Of a DNA stretch of 50,840 nucleotides, positions 7,983 to 47,240 are shown piece by piece (position 1 is the stretch's first letter; each line of letters starts with the position of its first letter). This DNA comes from Alcaligenaceae bacterium. GTDB lineage: Bacteria; Pseudomonadota; Gammaproteobacteria; Burkholderiales; Burkholderiaceae_B. The position numbers and the translations under genes were made by a program. The notes under the pieces were generated by a model. The model was not told the DNA's origin. It was given only the letters and a program-made list of their open reading frames with translations, and did no database searches. Where the stretch lies: assembly GCA_947378965.1 (NCBI GenBank), contig CANCMG010000020.1:1-50840 (forward strand), read 5' to 3'.

Positions 7983-8648
7983 ATGCCAAATTTAGTGAAA
8001 GCGATCAAAGAAGCCGCAAAGTCTTTCGTTTTTAAATATACGACGCTGGCTGCCCCAAGCTATCGCTACAACATTGAGCCGATTCAACTCACCTGTTTGA
8101 TCAATGAAATCGAAAAATTCAAAACGGTAAAGGGTTGCATTGTCGAAATCGGTGTTGCCCGCGGCCTCACGACACTGTTTTTGGCTGAGCATATCAAGCG
8201 GCAAAGCCTTCAAAACACTACTACCTTGTACGCTATTGATACCTTTGATTCATTTACCAAAGCTGACCTCGATTACGAAGTTCGCGACCGTGGCAAATCT
8301 TTGACCGAACTCGAAGCCTTTGGCTACAACGACTACGATGTCTGGGCAAAGAATTTTGCAAATTTTTCATTTGTGAAACCGCTCAAGGCGGATTGCGCCA
8401 CCGTAGATTATCAGGCACTTGGACCCCTCAAGTTGGCATTCTTGGATGTTGACTTGTATCTACCGACCAAAAACACACTGCCAAAGTTATTTGACGCGTT
8501 AATTACCGGTGGTGCAATTGTTTGCGATGATGTGTTGAATAACAATGTCTATGACGGTGCTTTTCAAGCCTACACCGAGTTTTGCCGCGAGTACTCCTTG
8601 ACGCCTGAGATTATCGGCAACAAGTGCGGCATTATTCGTAAGCCTTAA
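7983..8648 (+). CDS. TylF/MycF-type O-methyltransferase
   Basis: The protein is 221 residues, a class I SAM-dependent methyltransferase of the macrocin O-methyltransferase (TylF) family. The SAM-binding loop is VEIGVARGLTTLFLAEH (about 54-70) and the acidic end of beta-2 is AIDTFDSF (84-91). The family's metal-binding acidic positions are visible as FLDVDLYLPT (153-162) and CDDVL (181-185). Members usually methylate a sugar hydroxyl. An AAGG sequence shortly before ATG 7983 could serve as ribosome binding site. The gene stands alone on the plus strand between two minus-strand groups. Its last 47 bp are the first unit of a degenerate tandem repeat that continues into the intergenic region, so the C-terminal end may have been remodelled. 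Confidence 0.85.
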   Translation: MPNLVKAIKEAAKSFVFKYTTLAAPSYRYNIEPIQLTCLINEIEKFKTVKGCIVEIGVARGLTTLFLAEHIKRQSLQNTTTLYAIDTFDSFTKADLDYEVRDRGKSLTELEAFGYNDYDVWAKNFANFSFVKPLKADCATVDYQALGPLKLAFLDVDLYLPTKNTLPKLFDALITGGAIVCDDVLNNNVYDGAFQAYTEFCREYSLTPEIIGNKCGIIRKP

Positions 8649-8786
8649 TGGCCGAGCGTATCTGTAACAAATACGCCAGTGTTCGTCGGCCTGAGTGATT
8701 CGACGTATCAGCAACAAGTCTGGCAGCAGTCGTCGGCCTTAGCACCCGAACGTTTCGGCAAAAAATGCAGTATCAGTCGTCAGCCT
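8599..8786 (+). repeat. Four-unit 47-bp degenerate tandem repeat over a gene 3' end
   Basis: Four units lie head to tail without a gap: 8599-8645, 8646-8692, 8693-8739 and 8740-8786. All are exactly 47 bp and each ends in CCT. Neighbouring units match at about 30 of 47 positions by hand count, best in the last 31 bp (a GGCAACAAG-like core, then CGTCGGCCT or similar). The first unit is the end of the methyltransferase gene. The others, read in shifting frames, give protein-like echoes of its C-terminus: GNKCGIIRKP, CNKYASVRRPE, SNKSGSSRRP and GKKCSISRQP; the first three end at a stop. The last unit runs into the stop codon of the convergent glycosyltransferase gene at 8785. Confidence 0.8.
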
Positions 8787-9552
8787 AAGCCGCCCAGAGT
8801 TTTCGCTTAATTTCACGTTTTAAGCGCAGAGAGTACTTCACAAAAAAATCTTGAAGCCCTCGTGGGCGGCCTTTGAACTCTTGAAACAAGATATCAAGGT
8901 CTTTAAAGTAACGCTCTTCTAAACGCCCCGAACCAGAGATCGAGCCTTCGTGCAACCGAAACGCGGCAAGCTCTTTTTTGATCACGGCATGTTGTACGCC
9001 TGCCGTCAAAAATCTCAAAAAAAGTTCGTAATCCCAACAGGTTGTGTTTTTAACGTTAAAGCCTTTTGTTTGCTTAAACAAATTGGCCGAAAAAAATGTT
9101 GACTGTTGAAACATCACAGCCGCCACTTGCAACATCGCTTCTGCTGTTAACACCGTGGGATACACGCGGCTAAGCTTGCCTGTGCCCCGATCAATCAGGC
9201 CGTGCCCCGTGACAAAAACTGAATCAATCTTTTTTTGGCGTTCACAAAAATCAGCAACACATTTCAAGGCCTCGGGCATTAAATAGTCGTCTGAATTAAT
9301 GAAACCGTAGATGTCACCGGTGGCTTTTGCAAAGCCACGATTCAGACCGTCAGCGGGCCCGGCATCGGGTTCAAACACTTTAATAATTTGTTCGCCATAC
9401 GACGCAATCAGTTCGCGACTACCGTCTGTGCTGCCCGGGTCAACGATGATGTACTCAAGCTCGACACCTTTTTGACTGAGGATTGAATCAATACAAGTTT
9501 TTAGATATTGCTTTTGATTAAAAGAGATGGTGACAATCGAAAATTTCATCAC
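8785..9552 (-). CDS. Family 2 glycosyltransferase
   Basis: This is a compact 255-residue GT-A enzyme. It opens with FSIVTISFNQKQYLKTCIDS, has the nucleotide-binding acidic motif VDPGSTDGS (about 37-45), and NSDDY (86-90) as the DXD-type metal site. CWDYELFLRF in the acceptor half fits the family. It is most like short WcaE/WbbB-type GT2 enzymes that add one sugar to a lipid-linked oligosaccharide. The frame can start at GTG 9552 or ATG 9549; both overlap the TGA of the preceding gene (GTGATGA), so translational coupling is likely. It is the last gene of the minus-strand operon that begins near 24527 and ends inside the 47-bp repeat. Confidence 0.88.
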   Translation of the reverse strand: MMKFSIVTISFNQKQYLKTCIDSILSQKGVELEYIIVDPGSTDGSRELIASYGEQIIKVFEPDAGPADGLNRGFAKATGDIYGFINSDDYLMPEALKCVADFCERQKKIDSVFVTGHGLIDRGTGKLSRVYPTVLTAEAMLQVAAVMFQQSTFFSANLFKQTKGFNVKNTTCWDYELFLRFLTAGVQHAVIKKELAAFRLHEGSISGSGRLEERYFKDLDILFQEFKGRPRGLQDFFVKYSLRLKREIKRKLWAA

Positions 9553-10697
9553 AACCCTTTTGCCTTTGTCTTCCGCTCAACCTCTGTAATAAATTGCCAC
9601 GTACTGGCAGCGCACCGTGCCCACGAATACTGAACAGCTAATTCTTTAGCGCGCTGCGAAAGTCGTTGGCGCAATGACGGGTCAACGATAAGATGCTCGA
9701 CTGCAGCGGCAATAGACTGATCACTTTCAGGATCAAAGTATTCGCCGGCATCTTGCAAGGTTTCAGGCAAACTACTTTTGTGCGAACTGGCAATTGGCAC
9801 ACCAACCGCCATCGCCTCGAGCAACGAAATCCCAAAGGTTTCACAACCCGAGGCAAAGATAAACAAGTCACTTTGGGCAATACGCTCAGGGATCTGAGCG
9901 TGCGGCAAAAACTCTTCAACCGTGACAAACTCACCAAGAGGATCCGAAATTTTTATTTGCTGTGCCAACATTTTTTTTGCGCGTGCGCCCCCCCCGCCCA
10001 CCAAGGACAGTGTCACGTGATAGCCTCGCTCACGCAGCATTTTGATGGCTCGCACCACTACCCACTGATATTTGTATTCATAAATTGGTGACACATACAA
10101 ACAGCGAATCGGACGCTCAGCTGTCATCGGCCATTGTGCATGGTGAGGTGTCTTCAAAAATACTTGATTCACCCCATGAGGGATACAAATTGTGTTTGCA
10201 ATCGGACCGGTGTGCCTCTGCACGCAGGTGGCAGCATGTTGGGTCAAAAAGATGTTGCCGTCTGCTGCTTTAAATGCCCGCTTTTGAACTTCAAAAATAA
10301 AATGTTGCCGCAAGCGTTCTCGACTTAAGCCAAATAACGCGACCATGCCTTTTTCGTAGGGCAGCATATTCTGATTAAGCACCACCATTGGCTTAAAGCG
10401 GCACAAAGTACTTGCATCTGCAGCAAACAAAATATCGCATTGAGCAGACTGTATTTCTTTTGTGAGCTCGACAGCCTGCCAATACAGTTGGCGCGCCAAC
10501 GACTGATCGGCTGAGACAGGTTGATGCTTGACTAACCACGACCTGGCAGGCAGTACGTCAAGTAAGGCCTGATACGCCCAGACGTGCACCTGCTGAATAC
10601 CATACTGTTTAACCTCAGCTTCACTTAAGATGCCAAGCAAGTGCGCAATGCCACCACCAGATTTCACACGCGACGCATCGACGGCAACATTGATCAT
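9549..10697 (-). CDS. Family 4 glycosyltransferase
   Basis: The 382-residue protein has a GT-B fold. The C-terminal donor-binding domain shows CLYVSPIYEYKYQWVVVRAI and the retaining-GT4 acidic motif CETFGISLLEAMAVGVPIA (about 285-303). This is the EX7E signature with its first Glu in the CETFG position. The N-terminus, MINVAVDASRVKSGGGIAHL, contains the glycine-rich donor loop. It probably transfers a sugar from a nucleotide sugar during repeat-unit assembly at the cytoplasmic membrane face. Its ATG overlaps the stop of the gene upstream by 4 bp (ATGA), as does its own stop with the next gene. Confidence 0.88.
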   Translation of the reverse strand: MINVAVDASRVKSGGGIAHLLGILSEAEVKQYGIQQVHVWAYQALLDVLPARSWLVKHQPVSADQSLARQLYWQAVELTKEIQSAQCDILFAADASTLCRFKPMVVLNQNMLPYEKGMVALFGLSRERLRQHFIFEVQKRAFKAADGNIFLTQHAATCVQRHTGPIANTICIPHGVNQVFLKTPHHAQWPMTAERPIRCLYVSPIYEYKYQWVVVRAIKMLRERGYHVTLSLVGGGGARAKKMLAQQIKISDPLGEFVTVEEFLPHAQIPERIAQSDLFIFASGCETFGISLLEAMAVGVPIASSHKSSLPETLQDAGEYFDPESDQSIAAAVEHLIVDPSLRQRLSQRAKELAVQYSWARCAASTWQFITEVERKTKAKGL

Positions 10698-11767: not shown

Positions 11768-13015
11768 TTAGCGTGTCACCCAGCCTCTACCATTTGGAGC
11801 GTCACGCACGGGTGAAGGACAAAGTGCACGGTAGACCTCTACAGTTTTTTTTGCACACTGGGCCCACGTGAAGTCAGCAACCCGTTGCCTGCCCAGGTCA
11901 ATCAATTCAGCTCTTCTATCTGCGTCAAACACTACCTTTTCAATCGCGCTCGAAAGCTGATCGAGATCAGTCGGGTCAAAGTACTCTGCGGCTGAGCCTA
12001 TGACTTCAGGCATTGAGCTTGTATTGCTGCTCACCACGGGGCAGGATTGTGCCATGGCTTCTAGGGGCGGTAGCCCAAACCCTTCATACAGTGAGGGATA
12101 CACAAATGCCGTTGCGTGACGATACGCGCGGCTTAGGCTGGCATCATCGCCCGAACGGTGCTGTACTTGGGTGCTACTGAAACCCAGCTCACGCATCAAC
12201 ACCTTCTCGGCATGGGTGAAAGCGCCGCCGCCGAAGGCAAGTACATCAAATTCTCGAAGCAACCGGTGCGACGACGCGACTGCACACAAAAATCCATTGA
12301 AATTTTTATAGCCGTCGCGTAAGCCGACGTATAGCAAATAAGGACGAGAGTGATCACTATTCTGTTTCAACGAGGGCGATTCATTAAAAACTTCACAGCC
12401 TAAATGCACAACGGATATTTTGTCTGGGGCAACACCAAACAAACGTATCAAGTCAACACGCGTTGCTTCAGAAATACAAATTACATGATCGGCGCGTTGA
12501 ATCGCCTGATATTTAACGGAGTCTTTTAACGAAAATTTAACTGGGTCTTTTAACGAAAATTTAACAGGGTCTTGTAGCAAAAATTTAACCGGGTCTGGTA
12601 GCGAAAACTTAACTGAGCCTTGTAGCAAAACACTATTGCTCGCAGAAAGCTCAGGCAATTCGCTAATCATGTCGAAAACTGTTAGCACAGTAGGATGCTT
12701 GCCACGCAATGCCGGACGTGCCGAAAAATACGTTTCGTGCACAAGCTCAGGGCACCAACGTTGCATCGCCCTAGCCGCCACTTGCGCGTTTGCACGCACC
12801 ATTAAATTAGCCGTTTTCGGCAAATAGTTTTTTACGCTATAGCCATGCACCAGTGATTTAGGCAACGCTGCCAGATAGCTGTTGCGATACAACGGTGCAA
12901 ACACCCCTACCGTTTCGTTGCGCAGAGCGAGCTCAGCTGCCAGGCGACAAAAGTAGCGCGAGATCCCTCCGGTACGCTGTAAGCAAAAGGCTTGAGAGTC
13001 AAAGGCAATGCGCAT
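11768..13015 (-). CDS. Family 4 glycosyltransferase with an internal 8-residue repeat
   Basis: The 415-residue GT-B protein opens with MRIAFDSQAFCLQRTGGISR, the typical glycine-rich donor loop of mannosyltransferase-like GT4 enzymes. It carries YPSLYEGFGLPPLEAMAQSC, the EX7E motif, in the second domain. It should use a nucleotide sugar, possibly GDP-mannose or GDP-rhamnose, but this is not provable here. Between the acceptor-domain strand TVLTVFDMISELPEL (109-123) and RADHVICISEAT (174-185), family members normally have a short connecting segment. Here that segment contains five tandem 8-residue units (130-169, SLKDPVKF-like). The enzyme looks otherwise intact. It lies 8 bp after the HlpA-like gene and abuts the next GT4 gene. 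Confidence 0.87.
   Translation of the reverse strand: MRIAFDSQAFCLQRTGGISRYFCRLAAELALRNETVGVFAPLYRNSYLAALPKSLVHGYSVKNYLPKTANLMVRANAQVAARAMQRWCPELVHETYFSARPALRGKHPTVLTVFDMISELPELSASNSVLLQGSVKFSLPDPVKFLLQDPVKFSLKDPVKFSLKDSVKYQAIQRADHVICISEATRVDLIRLFGVAPDKISVVHLGCEVFNESPSLKQNSDHSRPYLLYVGLRDGYKNFNGFLCAVASSHRLLREFDVLAFGGGAFTHAEKVLMRELGFSSTQVQHRSGDDASLSRAYRHATAFVYPSLYEGFGLPPLEAMAQSCPVVSSNTSSMPEVIGSAAEYFDPTDLDQLSSAIEKVVFDADRRAELIDLGRQRVADFTWAQCAKKTVEVYRALCPSPVRDAPNGRGWVTR
12511..12630 (-). repeat. Five-unit 24-bp in-frame tandem repeat inside a GT4 gene
   Basis: Five contiguous 24-bp units occupy 12630 down to 12511 in reading direction. They encode LLQGSVKF, SLPDPVKF, LLQDPVKF, SLKDPVKF and SLKDSVKY. 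The period is a multiple of three, so gain or loss of a unit keeps the enzyme in frame. The last two units are the most alike and the first the most diverged, as expected from successive slippage events. The repeat sits in a connector of the acceptor domain and gives a Lys/Asp/Pro-rich extension of about 40 residues. Confidence 0.92.
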
Positions 13016-13023
13016 GCGATCGT

Positions 13024-13938: not shown

Positions 13939-13945
13939 GTGCTGA

Positions 13946-26535: not shown

Positions 26536-28218
26536 ATGTCGGCATTAATCATCAAAATAGAAGGCGGCTTAGGCAATCAATTGCTGCAATACTTGTTTGG
26601 ACAATCTTTATCGCGCCTGCATAACAAAGAGGTTTTTTTTGATATTTCTGAGTACGTAGAGGGTCGAGGCATCAGACGTTTTGCTCTAACCGAGTTAGGG
26701 CTACCCGGAAAATTTATTAGTTGCAAAAAAAACCTTTCGAGTGACTGCAAACTAATTCATTTACGAAAGATAAAGTCGCACGGGCAAGCGTTAGCGCTGT
26801 CAGATTGGTTTATCCTGCGAAAAAAAATTGCACTACTCGTTGAGCGTGAATCGGGGACCTTACAGGATTTCACGTCGACACCCTCTGCTTATTTTTCAGG
26901 CTACTGGGTCTCGTTCAATTACTGGTACCGCCCCCGCGAACTGGTAGCGTGGGTAAACGATTACCTAGATCGCACCGCTACCGCACGAGCGATAGCCGGC
27001 GGCGCTCTTTTACCTCATGCCAACGAAGGCTGTGCGATACACGTTAGAAGGGGAGATTATTTAAACCCAGAACACTTAGCTTGGCACGGGGTCTGCTCTG
27101 TTGAGTATTTCAATGCATCAATTAGCGCATCTAGATCAACGAACCATTTGTTTTTTTCTGACGATGCGTCTTTCATTGATAGTGAATTTTCGGACATCCC
27201 AGGCTATGTCAATGCCAGCCATCTCATTGGAAATGAGATTGATGAGTTTCTAATTCTGAGAAACTATCGAACAATGGTTATCTCAAATTCGACCTATAGT
27301 TATCTTGCAGCCCTTTTCTCATCCCTTAGGTTTGCGGATGCCCTGATCCTGACACCCTATCCTTGGTATCTCTGGGGCAATAGTCAACCACCATTGCTAC
27401 CAACGTGGCAAAGGCATAATGCCATGACTGGCGTCAACGAAGAGGTTGATCTTGCTGCAGCCAACCAACTCACGGTGAATGTACTACTTTACGGTTTTTC
27501 TGACGCGATAGAGCTCACGGAAACACTAAAAATGCTGGGCGCTCAGACCAGACGCCCGAATCAAATTACGTTGCAACCAAGAACATGCGCTCAAGAAGCG
27601 CTAATAATGGACGACTTTATTCGCCAAGAGTTTGGCGTAACGCCACTCTACTTACAAGCAGCAAATCATAACGAGTTTTTGTGTCGGGCGATTCAGAACT
27701 GCAGTGCTGACTTTATTATATTTTTGAACCCCGCGATTTGGTGGCACAAAGAAAAATTGGCGATTGAACTCAGACTCGCTGCAGAAATGCAGGCGGATAT
27801 TGTTGTTTCACGCGTTGGTTTTTCTTCGGAAGACGAGGACGATATTTCTTTACTTAATATCGATACATCAGTGAGAAATACGAGCACACTTGCGTGCCGA
27901 ACCGTGATTAGCCTTTTATCAGGCTTAGGTTCGGCGCTGATTAAATCGCGTGCGTGTCATGATCTAGCTCCCACAGATACAATATATGAACTGGCTCTTT
28001 CAACGAAGAAATTCGTCGTGCAAGACAAAATGCTAGCGCGTTATGACAAAGCTAAAATGACCGTGAGTCGACTTACGCAACGACTAGAAAATTTAAAAGC
28101 TGTTTTGCTACGACTGCAAACCGACGAGCGCGCGTCAGACGAACTTCAGCTCGCTGTTCAAGCGCTTATTGCTGATCTCAAAAACCTTGTCACAAAATCG
28201 GGCGGATACAATCTTTAA
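26536..28218 (+). CDS. Alpha-1,2-fucosyltransferase (GT11) fused to a GT2-like domain
   Basis: The protein is 560 residues. Residues 1 to about 295 are GT11: GGLGNQLLQY (10-19), the GDP-fucose-binding CAIHVRRGDYL (166-176) and ISNSTYSYLAAL (249-260). GT11 enzymes are usually about 290 residues, so the remaining 260 residues are an extra domain. That part reads like a family 2 glycosyltransferase (NVLLYGFSDAIELTETLKML; FIIFLNPAIWWHKEKLAIEL). The position normally occupied by the metal-binding D-X-D/D-D is FLNPAIWW, so catalytic activity is doubtful. A helical C-terminus follows (about 500-555). GDP-L-fucose for the first domain would come from fcl and gmd in this window. An AGGT ribosome binding site precedes ATG. 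Confidence 0.82.
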   Translation: MSALIIKIEGGLGNQLLQYLFGQSLSRLHNKEVFFDISEYVEGRGIRRFALTELGLPGKFISCKKNLSSDCKLIHLRKIKSHGQALALSDWFILRKKIALLVERESGTLQDFTSTPSAYFSGYWVSFNYWYRPRELVAWVNDYLDRTATARAIAGGALLPHANEGCAIHVRRGDYLNPEHLAWHGVCSVEYFNASISASRSTNHLFFSDDASFIDSEFSDIPGYVNASHLIGNEIDEFLILRNYRTMVISNSTYSYLAALFSSLRFADALILTPYPWYLWGNSQPPLLPTWQRHNAMTGVNEEVDLAAANQLTVNVLLYGFSDAIELTETLKMLGAQTRRPNQITLQPRTCAQEALIMDDFIRQEFGVTPLYLQAANHNEFLCRAIQNCSADFIIFLNPAIWWHKEKLAIELRLAAEMQADIVVSRVGFSSEDEDDISLLNIDTSVRNTSTLACRTVISLLSGLGSALIKSRACHDLAPTDTIYELALSTKKFVVQDKMLARYDKAKMTVSRLTQRLENLKAVLLRLQTDERASDELQLAVQALIADLKNLVTKSGGYNL

Positions 28219-28225
28219 GCTGTTT

Positions 28226-28295
28226 GTCGATTGAGAGTTGTCGCGAGTACCATTTATTTTGTCGACCGAGAGTTGTCGCAAGTACCATTTAATAA
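28226..28295 (+). repeat. Two-unit 35-bp tandem repeat after the fucosyltransferase gene
   Basis: Two copies begin at 28226 and 28261 (period 35). Over the first 31 bp they differ at three positions (for example GTCGATTGAG and GTCGACCGAG) and share AGAGTTGTCGC and AGTACCATTTA. The repeat begins 7 bp after the fucosyltransferase stop. A further short repeat, a CATC-TTCAAATTA and CATC-CTCAAATTA pair, lies at 28340-28371 just before the next start codon. Confidence 0.85.
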
Positions 28296-34810: not shown

Positions 34811-35400
34811 CACTGATAGTCGCTTCGCTCCACACTATTTCTAAACGGATCGGTCAGCTCATCTGAATACTGACCCATCAGCAGGCGCTGCTTAGGTAAA
34901 AAGTGTGCCCGAAAATAGCGGCTACCGCTGGCAATCGTTTGACCCCACTCCGTGAGCTTGACGCAACCCTCTTTAATTTCGATCGTGCCAGATTGTTGTT
35001 GTTCGGTTAAGCGTACATCCACTAAACGATGCTCTTTGACATACTCTTGAGTAAATACTTGATCAAACGCGTCTTGCCTGATGCCGCCGCCGCGTTGTTG
35101 CAGTTTTTCTAAGATATAAAAAGAGAGCGAGCGGTCGATTACGGTGGGTACTGAAATCGCAAACGAATACCCTAACAGCAACCATATGCAGCAAAGCTGC
35201 AAAGTTTCAAAACGCGTAAACACCTTAAACCAGCGAATCGTTGCAATCAAAAACGTAGCCAAAAACGTGGCGATGACCGCGTCTAAGATGGCGCTATAAA
35301 AGACGACATTCACAGGGATGTAACGCACGTGCAGTACATAAATGCCGAGCAATAACAGGGCGTATACAGCGGTCGCGAGCAGTAGTTTTAAATATTTCAT
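34804..35400 (-). CDS. Small membrane protein of unknown function, coupled to gtrA
   Basis: The 198-residue product has about four hydrophobic segments in the first 110 residues (KLLLATAVYALLLLGIYVLHV, YSAILDAVIATFLATFLIATI, LCCIWLLLGYSFAISV) and a soluble tail of about 90 residues ending in DYQC. I do not recognise a family. The start is ATG 35400 because it overlaps the stop of a 13-codon reading frame as ATGA, and because the frame further upstream simply runs through gtrA in another phase. It is the last gene of the ugd-uxs-gtrB-gtrA series and could partner GtrA, but nothing in the sequence proves it. Convergent with the ligase gene. Confidence 0.55.
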   Translation of the reverse strand: MKYLKLLLATAVYALLLLGIYVLHVRYIPVNVVFYSAILDAVIATFLATFLIATIRWFKVFTRFETLQLCCIWLLLGYSFAISVPTVIDRSLSFYILEKLQQRGGGIRQDAFDQVFTQEYVKEHRLVDVRLTEQQQSGTIEIKEGCVKLTEWGQTIASGSRYFRAHFLPKQRLLMGQYSDELTDPFRNSVERSDYQCQ

Positions 35401-35438
35401 ACTACGGCAGTCGCGAACAATCGTTTTAAATGTTTCAT
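35363..35438 (-). repeat. 38-bp duplication of a gene start, with ATGA coupling in both copies
   Basis: On the minus strand, 35438-35401 and 35400-35363 are two similar 38-bp units (beginning ATGAAACATTTAAAACGATT and ATGAAATATTTAAAACTACT). The first unit starts inside the gtrA stop (ATGA) and reads MKHLKRLFATAVV then TGA. The second starts inside that TGA (ATGA) and is the start of the real membrane-protein gene, MKYLKLLLATAVY. The period is not a multiple of three, yet both junctions keep the overlapping stop-start. Confidence 0.88.
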
Positions 35439-35851
35439 ACCTTAAAGACCATACGCTTATTGCCCCAGTAACTGCACAACACCTGCAAGCCTGTCGCGAG
35501 CACAAAACCGACGATGTAGTTGAGGTGATAGTGGTCGGCCCACACGTACATCAAAGCGCCGTGCAGTAAAGCGATCGCTGCATACAAAAAAATAAATCGA
35601 TACACCTGTTTAAACAAGGGTTCGACCGAACCTCGAAAAACGAAATGGCGGCTACCTAAAAACGAAGCGGCTATGCCAAAGACGGCCGCCACTAAATTAG
35701 AGATGCCGGCTGAGCTCCAGCCCAAAACCTTTAAATTGAAAGTCAACACCACAAAGTGCACGGCCGTAGCGGCCAAGCCATTGAGCAGGTAGCGGACTGA
35801 CTGCTGCGCCAGCAAGGCTTCGGCTTTACCGCGTACCCTACTAGTTAGCAT
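35435..35851 (-). CDS. GtrA-like membrane protein
   Basis: The 138-residue protein has four predicted membrane helices with the GtrA-family pattern: RYLLNGLAATAVHFVVL, VAAVFGIAASFLGSRHFVF, FIFLYAAIALLHGALMYVW and a last helix ending in SYWGNKRMVF. GtrA proteins are thought to flip undecaprenyl-phosphate-linked glucose or a related sugar to the periplasm for side-chain glycosylation of O-antigen or cell-wall polymers. It follows the GtrB-like gene with an 11-bp overlap, the usual pairing. Its TGA overlaps a downstream ATG. Confidence 0.85.
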   Translation of the reverse strand: MLTSRVRGKAEALLAQQSVRYLLNGLAATAVHFVVLTFNLKVLGWSSAGISNLVAAVFGIAASFLGSRHFVFRGSVEPLFKQVYRFIFLYAAIALLHGALMYVWADHYHLNYIVGFVLATGLQVLCSYWGNKRMVFKV

Positions 35852-36785: not shown

Positions 36786-36924
36786 GATTGACTTCGTTGT
36801 CGCCAAGGTGAGTACGTGCTTGCTGCGTTGACGCTGTCGCAAAAGCGTGTCGCGGCCAGTATTATCGCTACCGTTTTGCCTGATAACTGAGTGGCAAGGC
36901 TGCTAAGCATGACACCCTTTGAGG

Positions 36925-37881: not shown

Positions 37882-37976
37882 ATGAAGTGCATCAAGCTCT
37901 ACGTGTAAATTGCATCAAACGATCAGTAAGGGTTCAAGCTGCCTGCTCAGCCTTTGGATACTATCTGCTTGTCAGA

Positions 37977-39329
37977 TCAAGCGCGTCCAACACCTGCATA
38001 ATAAAAACCAAGTGCTTTTAAAGCCGCCGGATCAATATGATTGCGGCCATCAAAAAACAGTGCGGTCTTCAAAGTTGCCTTCAGCGCTTTGAAATCAATC
38101 TTTTTGTACTCGGCCCACTCGGTCACCAGCACAACCGCGTCAGCGGCATTGGCAGCTACAAGCGGATCGTTTTCAAGGACGAGCTTACCGTTGCGCAACA
38201 AATCCGCAAACACCTGCTCAGCAACCTCACGTGCGACCGGGTCGTGCGCCGCAACAGTCGCGCCCGCATTGCAAAGTGCACGAATCAAATCAATCGACGA
38301 AGCTTCGCGCATATCGTCCGTGTCGGGTTTAAACGCCAACCCCCACACGCAAATTTTACGACCTTCTAAGTCTTTACCCATCTTGGTAACAAGTTGCTCA
38401 AACAGATATTGTTTTTGCTTTTTGTTACGCGCCTCAACCCCGTTGAGCACAATCGGATCAACACCCACGCTTTGAGCGATGCGCACCAAGGCCTGTACGT
38501 CTTTCGGAAAACACGACCCGCCATAACCGCAGCCCGGCCGTAAAAACGCTGGGCCGATGCGTGAGTCTGACCCCATCCCAGCGCGCACGTCTTCGACGTT
38601 GATGCCAAAGCGGTCGCACACGTTGGCAATTTCGTTCATGAACGAGATACGCGTAGCCAGCATCGCGTTTGAGGCATACTTAATCAGTTCGGCTTCTTTG
38701 ACACCTACGGTTAATAATTGACTGTCGTTTTTAACGTAAGGCTTGTAAAGCGTCACCAGTTGCGCCTTGGTGGTCTCGCTTTCGGTGCCGATCACGATGC
38801 GGTCTGGGTTAAAGAAGTCGTCGATCGCGGCGCCTTCTTTTAAAAATTCGGGGTTACTGGCAACATCAAAATCAATAAAGCACTTGCGCTGAAACAGTTG
38901 CCAGGCGATTTCGCCTTTCACTAAGTCGGCGGTACCCACGGGCACGGTTGATTTATTAATGACGATCGCCGGGCCCACTAGCGTTTGGCCGATTTCTTTT
39001 GCGGCCGCCAAGACATAGCGTAAGTCAGCTGAGCCATCTTCGCCTTGCGGCGTGCCCACGGCGATAAAAATCAAGTTTGCGTGTGTGCTGTCGCTGCCAA
39101 GCTTGGTCAAACCATTTTTGATGCTGTCTGAAAACTTTAAATTGCCACTGGCAATCGAGCCATCAACCACTTCTTTGAGGCCCGGCTCGTAGATCGGAAT
39201 AATGCCTTTTTCAAGGCGAGCGATTTTGCTGGGGTCGGTGTCGACGCACACAACCGTGTTGTCTTTGCTCGACAGGCAGGCTGCGGTCACCAGGCCAACG
39301 TAACCAGCGCCAACGACTAGGATTTTCAT
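37977..39329 (-). CDS. ugd: UDP-glucose 6-dehydrogenase
   Basis: The protein is 450 residues from ATG 39329. It starts with the NAD-binding motif MKILVVGAGYVGLVTAACL, has VAVGTPQGEDGSADL, NPEFLKEGAAIDDF and the catalytic Cys in GYGGSCFPKDV, then CVWGLAFKPDTDDMREA. This is a complete UDP-glucose dehydrogenase making UDP-glucuronic acid, here the precursor for Uxs. The reading frame extends 36 codons upstream to 39437, but those residues arise from a degenerate repeat and do not resemble the family. Confidence 0.95.
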   Translation of the reverse strand: MKILVVGAGYVGLVTAACLSSKDNTVVCVDTDPSKIARLEKGIIPIYEPGLKEVVDGSIASGNLKFSDSIKNGLTKLGSDSTHANLIFIAVGTPQGEDGSADLRYVLAAAKEIGQTLVGPAIVINKSTVPVGTADLVKGEIAWQLFQRKCFIDFDVASNPEFLKEGAAIDDFFNPDRIVIGTESETTKAQLVTLYKPYVKNDSQLLTVGVKEAELIKYASNAMLATRISFMNEIANVCDRFGINVEDVRAGMGSDSRIGPAFLRPGCGYGGSCFPKDVQALVRIAQSVGVDPIVLNGVEARNKKQKQYLFEQLVTKMGKDLEGRKICVWGLAFKPDTDDMREASSIDLIRALCNAGATVAAHDPVAREVAEQVFADLLRNGKLVLENDPLVAANAADAVVLVTEWAEYKKIDFKALKATLKTALFFDGRNHIDPAALKALGFYYAGVGRA

Positions 39330-39365
39330 AAACCGACTCTCAAGAAACAACTTAATGTAAAGTTT

Positions 39366-39515
39366 TAAGATACTGCGGTAACCCTTCAGACACTGACGCT
39401 TAAGCGGCAGCATGGCAGGATCATGACTGACCTTCAATAAAAAAGAACACTATCCCTTAGGTCAGCAGGACAGAATCATGACTGACTTTCAAGAAAAAAG
39501 AGCAATACCCTTAGT
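39366..39515. repeat. About 55-bp degenerate tandem repeat between ugd and the double GT4 gene
   Basis: TCATGACTGACCTTCAATAA (39421) and TCATGACTGACTTTCAAGAA (39476) start two similar units. Both continue with an AAAAAGA tract and CCCTTAG, giving about 80% identity over some 45 bp with one small gap. A weaker third copy seems to lie upstream, with AAGATACTGCGGTAACCCTT at 39367. The repeat fills most of the non-coding gap between the downstream end of the glycosyltransferase gene and the ugd start. Confidence 0.75.
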
Positions 39516-42176
39516 TTAGGCAATTTTCGTGGCATTTTTGTTCAAAATCACCCTCGAAAGCAGCTGTTGAGTGCATTGCGCCCAGCTTTGCCGTTCAATT
39601 TCGCTTGAATCAGGTGTTTTTTGCTGTTGCGATAGCACCAACCAGCGTTGGATGACCGTGGCTAGGGCGGCGCCATCGTCGCCGGAAAAATACAAAGCAT
39701 GCTCTTGGGCCACTTCGCGAAATACTGGGATATCGCGGGCAATGATTGGCAAGCCGTGACGCGCGGCCTCGATCAGAGGTAAGCCAAAACCTTCGGCCTC
39801 ACTCGCGGCGATCAGACAGTTGGCCGTGGCATAGATTTTTTCGAGATACTCATCGCTGGCTGATTGCACCCAAAATAGTTGACTGCCAAGCTGGGGGTGG
39901 CTGCTTAAACGAGTGGTGAGCGCCTCGGTTAACCAGCCTGGCTTGCCGACGATGATCAGGTTGGCTGCAACCTGTTGCGCCCAAAGTTGCTCAAAAGCAT
40001 CCAATATTTGGCCATGGCGCTTGCGGGGCTCGAGCGTCCCCACGGCTAAAAAACTCGGGCTTGCTGCAAACTGCTGCAAAAGTTGTGTGACATGTTCAGG
40101 CAAGCCTGTCGAGGGTAGCGAGTTTTCAATATCGGCCCCCAAATGAAACCAGTCGATGTTTAGGGTTTCAGAAGCCTCGGGGTGATGATGGCTGACCCAG
40201 GTGCGCAATTCTTGCGCAACCGCTTGTGAAATACATATGGCACCGTGCTGTTGCGACACGATACGCAACCAATTGCCGTATTTTTCTACAAGCTCGGGGG
40301 TAAAGGTGTCTTTCAGCAACAAGGGCAACAGGTCGTACACCACAAAACACACTCGGGCACCAGCGCGGCGGGCCTGCGCAAAAAAATGCTCGTGGTCTTG
40401 ATCGATGTTGAAATGCAGGTCAAGGCCTAGAAAGATATCGCCCTGCCGCGGGCTGATATGGGCGTCTGCATTTGAGGCTGCCGTATCACTGTCACTGTCA
40501 CTGCCACTGCCACTGCCACTACTACTGCTACTGCCACTGCCACTGCCACCAAACATCTTCTGCGTAAATGCCACCGCAGTCTTATAGCCAAGAGGCTGGG
40601 CGGCGTATACCAGTTCTACCCTATAGCCCGGGTCAGTCTCTAACAACAAATGCTGAATCACACTGCGCACCACCCGTTGGATGCCTGACTTTGCATCATT
40701 GGCATGCAACTCGGTGATATCCACAAATAATCTGGGGCGCAGGTCTTGTGGCGGTAAAAGGGCAGCGACTAGCGCGGCGGTTTCTTTAAGTTCAACCACA
40801 GGGCGTTGAGGCGTTTGCTCAAGCCGTGCAATGCGGGCGGTGATCTCGGCTACGAGGGCCTCTGTGGTGGCCCGCACTGCGGTCAACGATTTAGCGGACG
40901 ACGCCATCGCGGACTGCGTCCCGAACCCGTGCGCTGATTTCGTGTGCGCCCCCAGCACACCCGCTTGCTCTAGCCGCATCAACGCGTCAAGCGCCTCGCG
41001 TGCCGTCTGATCCCACGAAAAAGTACCCACTTGCTGACGCCCGTGTGCCACAAGTCGAGCACGGTAGGCTTGATCGGTCAACACCTGGGTTATTTTTTGC
41101 GCAATGCTGTTGACCGAAAACGGATCAAACAAGGCCTCGGGTAAACCAATGACTTCAGGCACGCTTGAATAATTTGACCCAATCGTGGGCGCCCCACAAG
41201 CCATCGCCTCAAGCGCTGTCAAACCAAAGCCTTCACAGTAGGTTGGCAACACATAGGCTGTACACAAGCCATACAAGGCACATAATTCTTCGTCAGTGAT
41301 ACGCTGTGTCACGATGACTTCAGCAGCACTTAACCCTGCCTGCACGATGACCTGGCGGATGTGCGCTAAGCGCGGCGCATTTAAACCGCCTGCTAGCACC
41401 AGCTGGTGCGAGTGTTTAATTTCGTCTGGCTGTGCTGCGTAAGCGGCAACCAAGCGGTCAACATTTTTTCGTGGATCAAAGGCCCCTGTGTATAACAGAA
41501 ACGAACGCGTGATACCGAACTTTTGCCTGAGCGCTTCACTGGACTCAGGCGTCAGGGTGACTGGCCGTATGTCTTCACCCAGTGCAGCAGAAATGTTTTG
41601 AATGCGGTCTGCTGGTATACCCAGCTTTTCGATGCCGTCACGACGCGACGACTCAGAAATTGCAAACCAAAAGTCAGCTGATCTTAATTGCCATAGGCGC
41701 TCGTAGTACCACGCTTGCATACTTGGGTCAGCAAGATATTCGCTCTTGTACATCAGTGGTATCAAATCATAAAGCATTGCTACGGTATAGACCTGTGCAA
41801 TCTTGCCCACACTGACGACAGTGCTGTCGGCAGGACTATCCAGCAGACTGCTCAGAATCAAGACATCTGGCTCTAAGGTCGATATATACGCTTCACGCAA
41901 TAATTCTGAGACGTCTTTACGCCACGTGTTTTGCTTGTGACCAAGTTCAGTCGGCCCCAAACCCGACCATACGCAAACTCTGCACTGCTCACGCTCTTTA
42001 CCCAACCCATTCTGAACCTCAGTCAAGGACTCAGGAAACAGATCGCTCAGCAGTACGACAACTTCATGCTGACCTTTGTTGCGAATCAACGCTTTGACAA
42101 AAGCCAAGGCGTAACGTCCAATGCCACGATAGCGACTTTCGTTTTGAACCGCCTGCAGGTCGACCACTATTTTCAT
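39516..42176 (-). CDS. Double family 4 glycosyltransferase (two GT-B modules)
   Basis: The product is 886 residues from ATG 42176. The first module (about 1-405) has RYRGIGRYALAF and YCEGFGLTALEAMACGAP (about 313-330) with the EX7E motif. After a linker with an acidic/helical stretch (about 405-480), the second module has FVDITELHANDAKSGIQRV, FLAVGTLEPRKRHGQIL and ASEAEGFGLPLIEAARHGLP. The second module is closely similar to the separate GT4 at 47231-48616, so a paralogous gene was probably fused. Two active sites in one chain would suit a polymerising or alternating transferase, as in ABC-exported rhamnans. A Ser-Gly/Ser-Asp tract (about 543-565) interrupts the second module. A GTG at 42182 is the longer start. 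3 bp separate it from the methyltransferase stop. Confidence 0.85.
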   Translation of the reverse strand: MKIVVDLQAVQNESRYRGIGRYALAFVKALIRNKGQHEVVVLLSDLFPESLTEVQNGLGKEREQCRVCVWSGLGPTELGHKQNTWRKDVSELLREAYISTLEPDVLILSSLLDSPADSTVVSVGKIAQVYTVAMLYDLIPLMYKSEYLADPSMQAWYYERLWQLRSADFWFAISESSRRDGIEKLGIPADRIQNISAALGEDIRPVTLTPESSEALRQKFGITRSFLLYTGAFDPRKNVDRLVAAYAAQPDEIKHSHQLVLAGGLNAPRLAHIRQVIVQAGLSAAEVIVTQRITDEELCALYGLCTAYVLPTYCEGFGLTALEAMACGAPTIGSNYSSVPEVIGLPEALFDPFSVNSIAQKITQVLTDQAYRARLVAHGRQQVGTFSWDQTAREALDALMRLEQAGVLGAHTKSAHGFGTQSAMASSAKSLTAVRATTEALVAEITARIARLEQTPQRPVVELKETAALVAALLPPQDLRPRLFVDITELHANDAKSGIQRVVRSVIQHLLLETDPGYRVELVYAAQPLGYKTAVAFTQKMFGGSGSGSSSSSGSGSGSDSDSDTAASNADAHISPRQGDIFLGLDLHFNIDQDHEHFFAQARRAGARVCFVVYDLLPLLLKDTFTPELVEKYGNWLRIVSQQHGAICISQAVAQELRTWVSHHHPEASETLNIDWFHLGADIENSLPSTGLPEHVTQLLQQFAASPSFLAVGTLEPRKRHGQILDAFEQLWAQQVAANLIIVGKPGWLTEALTTRLSSHPQLGSQLFWVQSASDEYLEKIYATANCLIAASEAEGFGLPLIEAARHGLPIIARDIPVFREVAQEHALYFSGDDGAALATVIQRWLVLSQQQKTPDSSEIERQSWAQCTQQLLSRVILNKNATKIA
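40482..40550 (-). repeat. Ser-Gly/Ser-Asp microsatellite in the double GT4 gene
   Basis: In the coding direction this is a run of GGCAGT/GACAGT-like 6-bp units with some 3-bp units, giving a GGSGSGSSSSSG tract that turns into SGSDSDSD (about 22 residues). It is placed in the acceptor half of the second GT-B module between YAAQPLGYKTAV and GDIFLGLDLHF. The paralogue at 47231-48616 has a short non-repetitive loop there. In-frame length variation is likely. Confidence 0.9.
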
Positions 42177-42184
42177 CGCCACGC

Positions 42185-43474: not shown

Positions 43475-44690
43475 GCTGCACCTCTATACTAGAGGGCAAC
43501 CAAGTCAATCCCACAAAATGATCTTTACCGACGTTCACGACGTTAAAGACGATGGCTCGATCGCGCCACTCGTAATTTTTTTCAAGATGGCTCTCAGAAT
43601 CGTGTAACGCGAACGACATCGAATAAGAGCCTACACCAAAGTTCGCTGGAAACCGCAACACATAACGTACCGTATGCCCAACGTTCAAGGCTGTGATCAC
43701 CTGCTTAGTGTGAAAAGTATTGGTGCCAAATATGGGCTGGCCCAGTCGGTCTTTAATCTGATAGCCAAACACCAGTTCAGGCAAATCAGCAAAGGCTTCG
43801 ATCTCAACCTTTACCTGTAGGAGCTGCCCCACCTTCACGACCTCAACGGGTTTGCCGTCTTCGTCGCACAGGGTCGCTTGCACAACGCGTGCCTCGCCTG
43901 TACCCGAGATCGTCTGCACGTTACCATCGACACCTAACACCTGCTGCACGTTGGCGGGATCGCGCTCGGCGATCATCGCGTTGTAATAATCCATGACAGT
44001 TTCAGGGCTGCCTTGCATGGCGATCGAGCCTGCACTGAGCAAAATGGCGCGATCGCAAATGCCCTGTACCGCCCCCTTGTCGTGCGACACAATCAACAGC
44101 GTGGTACCTAGCTGGTTATACGCACGAATCCGGTCAAAACTTTTATGCTGAAAATAATTATCACCAACTGATAAGGCCTCATCCACAATCAAAATATCTG
44201 GACGCCGTGCCGTGGCTACGCTAAACGCCAAGCGCATTTGCATACCACTTGAATACACGCGCACCGGTTGATCGATGTAGTCACCGATCTCGGCAAAGGC
44301 TTCGATTTCGGGCATCAAGCTACGCATGTCGTCAGCACTTAAGCCAAGCAGTTGCCCTGCCATCAGGGCGTTTTGGCGGCCGGTAAAGTCTGGATGAAAC
44401 CCCATACCAAGCTCAAGCAGAGCCGCAATACGCCCGCTGACTTCAACCGAACCCGTGGTAGGTTCAGTCGTGCCCGTAATCATTTTGAGCAAGGTGCTTT
44501 TGCCAGCACCGTTCATACCGATGATGCCGATGGCTTCACCCGGCTTGACTTCAAAGTTGAGATTTTGCAATACCCACTTTTGCGCGTGGCGGGGCGGGCT
44601 AAACGGCATCAGCCATTCGGCTAACCGTGCGCTGCGGGTAGGATATTGTTTATAGGCTTTGCCTAAGCCGCGTACGCTGATCGCACCCAT
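43467..44690 (-). CDS. wzt: Polysaccharide ABC exporter ATPase with carbohydrate-binding tail
   Basis: The 407-residue protein has an ABC ATPase domain with Walker A GMNGAGKST (58-66), signature SSGMQMR (147-153) and Walker B ILIVDEA (166-172). The GRIAALLELGMGFHPDFTGR segment is typical of Wzt/KpsT. After about residue 260 there is a beta-rich C-terminal domain (VQATLCDEDGKPVEVV ... VVNVGKDHFVGL), the Wzt domain that recognises the finished, often capped polysaccharide before export. It starts with a one-base overlap to wzm (TAATG). Length and domain order are those of the long Wzt of O9a/O12/A-band type rather than the short KpsT type. Confidence 0.93.
   Translation of the reverse strand: MGAISVRGLGKAYKQYPTRSARLAEWLMPFSPPRHAQKWVLQNLNFEVKPGEAIGIIGMNGAGKSTLLKMITGTTEPTTGSVEVSGRIAALLELGMGFHPDFTGRQNALMAGQLLGLSADDMRSLMPEIEAFAEIGDYIDQPVRVYSSGMQMRLAFSVATARRPDILIVDEALSVGDNYFQHKSFDRIRAYNQLGTTLLIVSHDKGAVQGICDRAILLSAGSIAMQGSPETVMDYYNAMIAERDPANVQQVLGVDGNVQTISGTGEARVVQATLCDEDGKPVEVVKVGQLLQVKVEIEAFADLPELVFGYQIKDRLGQPIFGTNTFHTKQVITALNVGHTVRYVLRFPANFGVGSYSMSFALHDSESHLEKNYEWRDRAIVFNVVNVGKDHFVGLTWLPSSIEVQRD
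43480..43485 (-). promoter_or_regulatory. Ribosome binding site supporting the GTG start of the methyltransferase
   Basis: AGAGGT on the minus strand ends 5 nt before GTG 43474, inside the 3' end of wzt. No ATG in the same frame gives a better N-terminus, so the GTG start and the 8-bp overlap with wzt are preferred. Confidence 0.55.
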
Positions 44691-45481
44691 TAGAGCTCGT
44701 CAACCATTTCACCGGCATACTTGCGAAACAAATGCGCGCCAGAGATACAAAACAACACCGCGATCACGGTAATCGGCCATAACGAAAACCAATCAGGCCA
44801 TTGCCCATTAACTAAAATCTGCTGATAGGCGGCCATCAGATGCGTCATTGGATTATGGCTTAACACTTGCTGAAAAAACGACGGCAAAATATTGAGCGGA
44901 TACACGATCGGGGTTGCCCAAAATAAAAACTGCAACACAATCGCAGATAACTGACCTACATCGCGAAAAAACACATTTAATACACCGAGTGTCAGGCCCA
45001 GGCCCGCCGACAACAACAACTGTATCGCCAACACAGGGATCAATGCCACAAAGACCTTGCCGGGAAATGCGCCTGTGACCAACATAAAAATTGTAAATAG
45101 CGCAAAGATAATTAAAAAATTGACTAAGGCGTTTGTCAGCGCAATGATGGGCAAACACATGCGCGGAAAGTTAATCTTTTTAAGCAGATTGGCGTTTTCA
45201 ATAAAAACGTTTTGCCCGCGAGTGACTGCCTCATTAAAAAACGACCAGGTCAGTACGCCTGCACACAGATAGATGCTGTAGGCGAATTCGCTTTCAACGC
45301 CGGGCAGTTTGCTGCGCATAATCTGCGAGAACACCACGGTATACACGATGATCATGACGAGCGGACGAATCACTGTCCACGCCGCACCAAGCAACGAGTT
45401 TTTATAGTTGGCCTGAAACTCGCGTTGCACACTGCCTAAGATAAAGCCGCGATAACCCCAAAAGGTTTGAAGGACTCTCAT
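44690..45481 (-). CDS. wzm: Polysaccharide ABC exporter permease
   Basis: The product is about 263 residues and has six membrane helices, as usual for Wzm. It shows REFQANYKNSLLGAAWTVIRPL near the N-terminus, then LVMIIVYTVVFSQIM and YLCAGVLTWSFFNEAV. It forms with Wzt an inner-membrane exporter for polymerised, undecaprenyl-linked polysaccharide. The frame can be read from a GTG at 45493, but ATG 45481 (MRVLQTFWGYRGF) starts in line with family members. It lies between manC and wzt with short spacing, in one operon. Confidence 0.93.
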   Translation of the reverse strand: MRVLQTFWGYRGFILGSVQREFQANYKNSLLGAAWTVIRPLVMIIVYTVVFSQIMRSKLPGVESEFAYSIYLCAGVLTWSFFNEAVTRGQNVFIENANLLKKINFPRMCLPIIALTNALVNFLIIFALFTIFMLVTGAFPGKVFVALIPVLAIQLLLSAGLGLTLGVLNVFFRDVGQLSAIVLQFLFWATPIVYPLNILPSFFQQVLSHNPMTHLMAAYQQILVNGQWPDWFSLWPITVIAVLFCISGAHLFRKYAGEMVDEL

Positions 45482-45509
45482 CAAGCGATGCACCGGCTAA
45501 GCCTCAGCT

Positions 45510-46925
45510 TCACGCGCGACCGTAGTGGTCTTCAAAGCGCACGATATCGTCTTCACCCAGATAATTGCCACTTTGCACTTCGATCAATACTAGATCGATT
45601 TTGCCTGGGTTTTCAAGGCGATGCTTATGCCCCGCAGGGATAAAGGTAGATTCGTTAGTGGCGATCAACAGATCTTGCGAGCCATTGACAACCTTGGCCA
45701 TGCCATCCACCACAATCCAGTGCTCGCTACGGTGATGATGCATCTGCAACGATAACGACGCACCGGGTTTAACCACGATGCGTTTCATTTTGAACCCAGA
45801 GCCTTCTTCGAGCACCGTATAGGTACCCCAGGGGCGATGCACTGTGCGGTGTAGTTTATAGGCTTCGTGCCCAATCTTTTTAAGTTGACCCGCGATTTGT
45901 TTGACGTCTTGCGAGTGCTCTTTGTGAGCGACGAGCAAGGCATCAGGCGTATCAATGATGATGAGGTTGTCGACACCCACCGCCGCAATTAAACGGCCGG
46001 AAGCTTGAATAAACGTGTTGCTCACCTCATGCAAATAGGTTTCGCCCTCAAGACTGTTACCGTTTGCGTCCTGCTCGATCAGGTCACCCAGCGCGTTCCA
46101 CGAGCCGATATCGCTCCAGCCGATGTTGCACGCAACGATGGCCGCGTGGGTGGTTTTTTCCATTAAAGCGTAGTCAATTGAAATGCTATCGGCTTTTTTA
46201 AAGGTGGCCGCATCGAGATCTATTTGGTACTGACCGGCGCCTTCAACCCGGCGCGAAACTTGCAAGCTTTTTTCAACAGCGTCGAGCACCGCTGGGGCGT
46301 AACGTTTCAATTCTGTCATGGCGGTTTCTGCTGTCATGCAGAACATGCCAGAGTTCCAGAGATATTTACCGCTAGCTACATACTCTTGCGCGGTTTTAAG
46401 GTCTGGTTTTTCGACAAATCGTTTGACGACATGACCTTCAGACTCGATGTAGCCATAACCTGTTTCAGGGCCTTCGGGCTGGATGCCAAAGGTAGTCACT
46501 TTGCCGGTTTCAGCCAGTTTGACTGCTGTTTGTACGGCCTCAGTAAACGCAGGTACATCGGCGATCAGGTGATCTGCAGTTAAAAATAACATCACCGCCG
46601 TGGGGCCGTAACTTTGATGAATCGTGAGGGCGGCGGCGGCAATTGCAGGCGCGGTGTTACGGCCTTCGGATTCAAGGATGAAGCCTAATGGCATCGGTAT
46701 TTCACCGGTTTCGCGGTATTCGTCTGCTGTTTTAAAAAACAGATCGCGGTTGGTCACGGTGAGGACTTCAACGACGTTTGGCAAGCCTTTTGCCCGCAAA
46801 AATGACTTTTGTAACAGGCTCTGGCCATCGGCCAAACGAATAAATGGCTTGGGGTGTTGCTCGCGCGAAACTGGCCACAAACGCGTACCGGCACCACCAG
46901 ACAGAATCACAGGGATTAATTGCAT
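45510..46925 (-). CDS. manC: Mannose-1-phosphate guanylyltransferase / mannose-6-phosphate isomerase
   Basis: The 471-residue bifunctional protein has an N-terminal nucleotidyltransferase domain (VILSGGAGTRLWPVSREQHPKPF, 7-29) and a C-terminal cupin isomerase domain (RPWGTYTVLEEG, then LSLQMHHHRSEHWIVVDGMAKV). It makes GDP-mannose, the substrate of Gmd encoded at 48830, and so feeds both the GDP-L-fucose and the GDP-D-rhamnose branches in this window. No phosphomannomutase gene (manB) is seen here. It is the first gene of the manC-wzm-wzt operon, with a possible promoter just upstream. Confidence 0.95.
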   Translation of the reverse strand: MQLIPVILSGGAGTRLWPVSREQHPKPFIRLADGQSLLQKSFLRAKGLPNVVEVLTVTNRDLFFKTADEYRETGEIPMPLGFILESEGRNTAPAIAAAALTIHQSYGPTAVMLFLTADHLIADVPAFTEAVQTAVKLAETGKVTTFGIQPEGPETGYGYIESEGHVVKRFVEKPDLKTAQEYVASGKYLWNSGMFCMTAETAMTELKRYAPAVLDAVEKSLQVSRRVEGAGQYQIDLDAATFKKADSISIDYALMEKTTHAAIVACNIGWSDIGSWNALGDLIEQDANGNSLEGETYLHEVSNTFIQASGRLIAAVGVDNLIIIDTPDALLVAHKEHSQDVKQIAGQLKKIGHEAYKLHRTVHRPWGTYTVLEEGSGFKMKRIVVKPGASLSLQMHHHRSEHWIVVDGMAKVVNGSQDLLIATNESTFIPAGHKHRLENPGKIDLVLIEVQSGNYLGEDDIVRFEDHYGRA

Positions 46926-46953
46926 GCTTGACCGTCAGAATTAAGTTTTAGAC

Positions 46954-46962
46954 ATTATCGCA
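46954..46962 (-). promoter_or_regulatory. Possible extended -10 promoter for the manC operon
   Basis: TGCGATAAT on the minus strand matches an extended -10 (TGN-TATAAT-like). It would give a start about 20 nt before the manC ATG (46925). The -35 region is poor, which is common with extended -10 elements. Not tested. Confidence 0.35.
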
Positions 46963-47059
46963 TTCTGGAGGCTGAAAAACCGGCTTCAGACTTTTGAAGC
47001 ACAGCTAACTGTACGACCGCCCCCAAACATTCGCACGAAAGTGTGCGACGAGTGGCGTT

Positions 47060-47240
47060 GATTGTTGCGCGAAATTGCCTCGCTACTGAAGGACTGTAGC
47101 TTGGTTTTTACCTAAAATTGCCTTGCTGTTGAAGTACTGTAGATTGGTTTTGCGCGAAATTACCTTGCTGCTGAGGGACTGTAGATTGGTTTTGCAGGAA
47201 ATTGCCGTGCTGCTGAGGGACTGTAGACTATTACTGCACA
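47060..47240. repeat. About four-unit 42-bp degenerate tandem repeat between manC and a GT4 gene
   Basis: Units start at 47072, 47115, 47157 and 47199 (periods 43, 42, 42), each opening AAATTRCC and containing CTGTAG near the middle and TTGGTTTT in the second half. The middle units are the closest. A partial unit precedes 47072. The last one overlaps the stop codon and last codons of the GT4 gene at 47231. Non-coding in the manC direction; an open frame through it is simply the translation of the repeat. The rest of the 300-bp gap contains a small hairpin (TCGCAC at 47031 with GTGCGA at 47043) and the possible manC promoter. Confidence 0.85.

Follow-up and report, generated by a model that had tools for sequence, protein, structure and literature searches.

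Do the short tandem duplications that crowd the gene boundaries of a bacterial polysaccharide locus serve that locus, or are they the local share of something that affects the whole chromosome? The question is raised by the 50,840-nucleotide contig CANCMG010000020.1 of an Alcaligenaceae bacterium (assembly GCA_947378965.1), analyzed here over its full length and called the window, in which seven tandem arrays lie among glycosyltransferase and related genes. An earlier note on this DNA had read the arrays as a recurrent process belonging to one polysaccharide locus, either a local device for varying surface glycans or a footprint of error-prone end joining. Taken as a whole, that interpretation is partly supported: the arrays are present as described and their units are unrelated, and the polysaccharide locus is not the only place where such arrays occur. 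The raised load is found in one clade of Sheuella-like Alcaligenaceae, where it is probably produced by frequent short tandem duplication, followed by copy-number change and decay through point mutation, and filtered by selection.

Arrays across the Host Genome

The window is an entire contig (C20) of a genome, G000, that comprises 4.5 Mb in 189 contigs, is 96.5% complete and, judged by its fragmentation, is likely a metagenome assembly; in such assemblies, perfect long arrays may be collapsed. Its thioredoxin reductase, TrxB, matches that of Sheuella amnicola NBD-18 at 90% and that of a Burkholderiaceae metagenome-assembled genome at 91%. Sheuella is placed in the Alcaligenaceae, and the host is a Sheuella-like member of that family; the portion of the source used here describes Sheuella as a member of the freshwater GKS98 cluster (PMC10535154).

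We examined 796 kb of G000 in 39 pieces, consisting of the window and parts of contigs C1 to C10 picked by length. Arrays called by Tandem Repeats Finder (TRF) were merged and counted at a period of at least 10 bp; those scoring at least 100 are termed strong, and a score of at least 50 served as the weaker cut. The 796 kb hold 77 arrays at the weaker cut and 44 strong ones (5.5 per 100 kb), whereas 2.39 Mb of dinucleotide shuffles of the same sequence yielded four arrays of score at least 50 and none of score at least 100. Head-to-tail copies therefore exceed chance.

The arrays spread well beyond the polysaccharide locus. The 50.8-kb window contains five strong arrays and the other 745 kb contain 39 (ratio 1.9, p = 0.20); by laxer criteria, tandem arrays make up 1.12% of window bases, compared with 0.96% for the remainder of the G000 sequence. 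The earlier note had proposed that repeats be counted per kb in the rest of the genome, an equal density counting against its reading; to the extent that this test has power, the window does not differ significantly from its surroundings, and the pattern cannot be assigned to one locus. Ten proteins were identified in G000 whose 3′ ends lie at most about 110 bp from an array, and they include thioredoxin reductase (trxB), MinC, RNA pyrophosphohydrolase (rppH), L-arabinonate dehydratase and fumarate hydratase.

The units are unrelated to one another. Off-site matches among the 39 pieces were obtained for two of the 77 arrays, and both of these proved to be one array split at a piece edge; no unit of the 76 distinct arrays recurs elsewhere in the 796 kb. 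The view that a process recurs, rather than any single element, is borne out.

Array Load across Lineages

To place this load in context, group tests covered G000, five near relatives and six congeners, and the comparison between species rests on one genome per species. Strong arrays are 9.5 times denser in G000 than in 80 named Burkholderiales loci, which contain eight in 1.37 Mb (0.58 per 100 kb; p = 1.5e-12), and 22 times denser than in the six congeners, which contain one in 400 kb (p = 5e-7). In 450 kb of the five near relatives there are 12, or 2.7 per 100 kb, a density that G000 exceeds 2.1-fold (p = 0.025). Eight named loci under 57% G+C contained no array of score at least 50 in 136 kb. 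Ten genomes sampled at no more than 20 kb each (G001, G002, G003, G008, G016, G017, G022, G024, G041 and G045) and the further samples G006 (33 kb), G011 (3 kb) and G013 (5 kb) stand outside the group tests; G009 and one piece of G024 yielded no readable bases. Among the papers listed by our literature searches, none dealt with a comparable load of repeats in this bacterial group.

In the trxB tree, G000 groups with G018, G004, G010, G019 and G007, beside G006, G024, G041 and G009, in one clade with a support of 1.00. G001, G003 and G008 cluster elsewhere and carry two strong arrays in 35 kb (L109, L111 and L117), which weakens the case for a single-clade origin; they are perhaps a second array-rich group, thinly sampled.

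Copy Number at Orthologous Sites

Sixteen arrays on C2 and one piece of C4 were compared with the five near relatives, arrays less than 355 bp from a piece edge being dropped, and 14 sites were alignable in at least one relative. Three of 44 site-by-relative comparisons were equal in length. Among the 41 unequal comparisons, 19 differed by whole units to within 1 bp, against 4.2 expected, and these were distributed over eight of the 14 sites. Relatives frequently carry fewer whole units than G000: at the 39-bp array L011:15066 the five relatives are shorter by 39, 39, 78, 117 and 118 bp, and at a 40-bp array the length differences are 40, 80, 80 and 120 bp, these two sites giving the clearest ladders. 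At four of the 14 sites, a relative contains a TRF array of the same period (within 1 bp) or of doubled period. Because relatives hold shorter or single-copy versions and the units recur nowhere in the 796 kb, the arrays are local duplications of pre-existing sequence.

Placement Relative to Genes

Arrays inside genes keep the reading frame: 14 of 15 have periods divisible by three, compared with 24 of the 62 outside genes (Fisher p = 1e-4). Outside genes, arrays gather at 3′ ends. The 3′ end of a gene is 10 bp or less away for 28 of the 62, against 7.6 expected, and none of 2,000 random placements reached 28; 10 lie at a 5′ end against 8.4 expected. Divergent spacers contain 7 of the 58 arrays with both neighbors known, compared with 18.2 of 62 expected; in same-direction spacers 25 of 40 arrays are nearer the 3′ end and 15 nearer the 5′ end, a difference that alone is not significant.

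Duplications apparently persist where they do little harm. A harmless zone would adjoin the stop codon, because a duplication spanning the stop spares both the upstream gene and the next promoter, and because spacers are short (array-free spacers in G000 have a median of 87 bp). We think that a selective filter of this kind accounts for the gene-end pattern.

At L016:6203-6474, we also observed an array of AAAAAAGCC-like units of about 15 to 45 bp, which perhaps encodes a lysine- and alanine-rich protein.

Ends and Age of the Duplications

Classical slipped mispairing between direct repeats should leave several base pairs of homology at the ends of a duplication. In G000, six of seven strict two-copy arrays (period at least 15 bp, identity at least 90%, 1.9 to 2.4 TRF copies) have no more than 1 bp of extra homology at their ends, and the remaining one has 7 bp. 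Under strict junction scoring (TRF score at least 40, period at least 12 bp; the 111-bp pair at L019:17982 fell outside this filter), homology of at most 1 bp was found in 16 of 23 rows in G000; near relatives gave 13 of 18 and named Burkholderiales 36 of 48, although many of the pairs in the last group have periods of 12 to 15 bp and are perhaps due to chance. Near-blunt ends are thus no mark of a special process, since most pairs elsewhere in Burkholderiales share them; the points that would call for an explanation are the heavier load and the skew toward 3′ ends.

The majority of copies have diverged considerably, with a median adjacent-copy identity of 0.86 in 44 arrays of period at least 15 bp, score at least 60 and at most 1% indels; fully identical copy pairs also occur. 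For comparison, G000 and its five near relatives differ at 15 to 19% of alignable noncoding DNA and at 30 to 39% of third codon positions. The 522 differences between copies show no adenine bias, and transitions make up 0.47 of them, compared with 0.53 to 0.57 between species; A accounts for 26% of array bases. Most of the degeneracy can probably be put down to ordinary mutation that has accumulated from roughly the time at which the species separated.

Proposed Origin of the Arrays

Based on these observations, we propose that the lineage acquires and retains short tandem duplications, whose periods range from roughly 12 to 111 bp, throughout its chromosome. In the seeding event, a local segment would be copied once beside itself, probably with near-blunt ends, as the 0 to 1 bp of end homology in most recent pairs suggests. 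Copy number may later shift at times by whole units, through slippage or recombination, and the copies would diverge through ordinary point mutation. The survivors would be duplications lying over or just past a stop codon that leave both genes working; inside genes, those that keep the frame would persist, and spacers with divergent promoters would be avoided. Most arrays are presumably selectively neutral.

Several points weigh against this proposal. The sequence read amounts to 796 kb of 4.5 Mb; gene calls were simple, with some starts truncated; and near-relative stretches were partly selected for synteny with array-rich pieces, so that their density may run high. At the weaker cut the gap between lineages is small, 9.7 arrays per 100 kb in G000 vs. 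7.1 in named Burkholderiales. Other Burkholderiales show near-blunt ends just as often, and under lenient junction scoring (period at least 15 bp, no indels) 11 of 17 two-copy arrays have an excess of at most 1 bp and six have 4 to 15 bp. Among the unequal orthologous comparisons, 22 of 41 are not whole-unit differences. Ten of the 14 sites lack a TRF array of the same or doubled period in relatives; this absence is itself uncertain, because two of the ten show another TRF period (L012:2377 in G007 and L051:13852 in G004) and alignments hint at degenerate copies in G004 at L011:15854 and L012:11652. Finally, the 3′ bias, estimated with a placement model that holds the unit midpoint inside the spacer, exceeds what promoter avoidance obviously predicts.

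Alternative Explanations

Longer persistence is a serious rival to faster birth. The lineage may duplicate no more than others and instead purge spacer DNA less, so that ordinary duplications last longer. Array-free spacers fit this explanation in part, with medians of 87 bp in G000 and 88 bp in near relatives compared with 48.5 bp in the six congeners, as do the well-diverged copies and the resemblance of recent-pair ends to those of other Burkholderiales. However, 16 named loci under 60% G+C have spacers equally long (median 96 bp), and strong arrays are nonetheless rare in the named loci; moreover, the near relatives share the spacer length of G000 and have half its density. Slow purging is possible, but less likely than the origin proposed above.

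A second alternative concerns the mechanism of duplication. The raised load and the excess at 3′ ends could reflect a raised rate of near-homology-free, Ku-less duplication that prefers gene 3′ ends, by a route tied to the termination of transcription or of translation or through a lineage-specific change in replication or repair. We regard this as unlikely, although its probability is not negligible.

The glycan-specific reading, in which unit number would alter the expression or activity of glycan genes as a local switch or evolvability device, is very unlikely. Seven arrays in one polysaccharide locus, the 1.9-fold point estimate for window density and two arrays that alter protein stretches in frame speak for it; against it, the window excess is not significant, and arrays stand near housekeeping genes as well. 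Furthermore, five of the seven window arrays sit at stop codons with diverged copies, which is unlike typical phase-variable tracts.

Mutagenic copying, by a diversity-generating retroelement or a translesion polymerase, would make copies divergent at birth. Degenerate copies and a DnaE2-like gene in G000 are compatible with it. However, the copy differences lack adenine bias and fully identical pairs exist; G005 and G014 have DnaE2 over the cut-off and no strong array in 180 kb, while G010 (82% complete) and G019 carry three and one strong arrays, respectively, with no DnaE2 over the cut-off. This explanation is highly improbable on that evidence (reverse transcriptases were not searched).

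Ku-dependent end joining of staggered breaks, suggested by the near-blunt recent pairs and by the earlier note's mention of an end-joining footprint, retains almost no probability: Ku was found in none of 32 genus genomes including G000, 18 of which have a completeness of 90% or more and no more than 5% contamination, with a positive Bacillus subtilis control (LigD was not searched), and near-blunt ends are equally common in other Burkholderiales. An origin of the units in a family of mobile or regulatory repeats of the REP or MIRU type, the proximity to stop codons being reminiscent of MIRU-type elements, is scarcely credible, because no unit recurs in the 796 kb and relatives are single-copy at window positions 35365 and 39408.

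Repair Genes

The same 32 genomes were searched for other repair functions. Loss of mismatch repair was rejected, as a MutS domain is present in 29 of the 32 and intact in G000. RecJ loss was likewise rejected: RecJ matched in 26 genomes, 22 of them over the cut-off, it is present in G000, G004 and G007, and it does not track the arrays; it was not found in G010, G018, G019 and G043, which are 82 to 93% complete. SbcD was found in none of the 32, with a positive control in 13 of 14 well-known genomes, and so cannot explain differences within the genus. Y-family polymerases occur in 30 of the 32. DnaE2, over the cut-off in 17, does not track arrays and was rejected as well. The DnaE2-like gene of G000 is seemingly split between C92:16868-17089 and C165:4-3000, and a weak match to a Y-family polymerase, perhaps ImuB, lies close by on C92.

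Arrays of the Polysaccharide Locus

All seven arrays of the locus were recovered, six by TRF (listed at a score of at least 30) and all seven by a lag scan over the window, which hit exactly these seven places and gave no hit in two shuffles. As the earlier note had stated, most of them lie at gene boundaries: the 47-, 35-, 38-, 55- and 42-bp arrays, five of the seven, reach a stop codon or lie within a few base pairs of one, and the other two, the 24-bp array and the SG/SD run, are in frame within glycosyltransferase genes. A Pfam scan matched nine of 10 window proteins, and since these matches include glycosyltransferase, methyltransferase and GtrA families, the polysaccharide setting is correct.

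The 47-bp array (8591..8802, plus strand; about 4.3 degenerate copies) was detected by the lag scan, at 8591-8790, and is absent from the TRF list. Its first copy falls at the very end of the coding sequence for a TylF-like methyltransferase (7983-8648) and its second crosses the stop at 8648; identity among the four copies is 57 to 68%, and none of 1,000 mononucleotide shuffles of the region reached its score. The 24-bp array (12511-12630, minus strand; 5.0 copies, TRF score 142) is in frame within a group-1 glycosyltransferase gene at 11768-13015, as judged by Pfam and translation. The 35-bp array (28223-28291, plus strand; 2.0 copies, score 117) begins 5 bp past the stop at 28218 of a gene with a Glyco_transf_11 match in Pfam (26536-28218), and junction scans revealed no more than about 1 bp of homology at its ends. 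These three arrays yielded no close orthologous stretch in the relatives sampled, matches in that half of the window reaching at most about 77% identity.

The remaining four arrays, all on the minus strand, can be compared with relatives. The 38-bp array (35365-35440; 2.0 copies, score 110) overlaps the end of a GtrA-like gene (35435-35851) and duplicates the first codons of a gene starting near 35400; the site is exactly 38 bp shorter in all four matching relatives (G041, G010, G043 and G007). The 55-bp array (39408-39514; score 156) lies in the spacer between genes 39516-42182 and 37977-39437, 2 bp from position 39516, the stop end of a group-1 glycosyltransferase gene. The repeat itself was confirmed; of the two to three copies claimed earlier the third was not, since TRF gives 2.0, and G041 has one copy, its match being 53 bp shorter. 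Within the same glycosyltransferase gene, a 6-bp array (40487-40549; 10.5 copies, score 91) encodes an SG/SD linker by translation; it is the sole short-unit array of score at least 50 in the window, and the linker differs in three aligned relatives. The 42-bp array (47065-47227; 3.9 copies, score 212) begins 4 bp beyond the stop codon of the group-1 glycosyltransferase gene at 47231-48616, in a spacer of 245 bp in G000 vs. 57 bp in G007, and was not found in G013.

Two further features of the window were noted. Positions 1-5000 have a G+C content of 0.375 to 0.42, compared with 0.49 for the window, perhaps reflecting recent acquisition. In addition, the window gene at 45510-46925, presumably mannose-1-phosphate guanylyltransferase-like, has a counterpart of 94% protein identity on contig C23 (25362-26771).

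Comparison with Known Repeat Systems

What appeared to be a glycan-specific device becomes a lineage-wide mutational habit, one that is datable and comparable because copy numbers at shared sites are lower in sister species. Should faster birth lie behind the load, the habit would offer a route to studying the origin of bacterial minisatellites where no Ku was found.

The arrays differ from phase-variable contingency loci, since they are not concentrated at surface genes (p = 0.20, with housekeeping neighbors) and their units are not near-identical short slipping tracts (median identity 0.86). They also differ from dispersed repeats of the REP and MIRU type, with no unit family occurring at many sites in the 796 kb. 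In the slipped-mispairing model of minisatellite birth, one ancestral copy gives rise to a tandem pair, which later gains further whole units, and the seed is expected to end in a direct repeat of several base pairs. Our arrays resemble this model in their passage from a single ancestral copy to a pair and in whole-unit growth; they depart from it at the ends of the strict two-copy arrays, six of seven of which have at most 1 bp.

Archaeal Borg elements provide a parallel in load. In the portion of the source used here, their repeats make up 0.29 to 1.02% of bases, were counted as perfect copies, are adenine-rich, often have flanking partial repeats, arise independently, are present or absent between relatives, and occur in genes and spacers (PMC9879509). 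As far as that portion allows comparison, G000 shares a comparable load (1.12% and 0.96%, by laxer criteria), independent birth, presence or absence between relatives and occurrence in both genes and spacers, whereas its copies are degenerate, A is 26% of array bases and partial repeats seldom flank its recent two-copy arrays.

For Burkholderia pseudomallei, the part of the report drawn on here describes genome-wide arrays that are 74.7% and 68.2% intergenic on the two chromosomes, with genic arrays mostly in multiples of three, most units of 6 to 9 bp, and a full or partial duplicate elsewhere for 36.3% of arrays (PMC1853098). On that partial basis, G000 differs in the periods of its strong arrays (12 to 111 bp), its degeneracy and the recurrence of 0 of 76 arrays in 796 kb, figures obtained under different search criteria; it shares the mostly intergenic location, the triplet periods within genes and the genome-wide spread. 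Head-to-tail copies above chance, whole-unit differences between related genomes and unit-number variation within a species are the features by which a bacterial variable-number tandem repeat, or minisatellite, is recognized, and the first two are found here. The arrays of G000 work like bacterial minisatellites and, by the features tested, are bacterial minisatellites.

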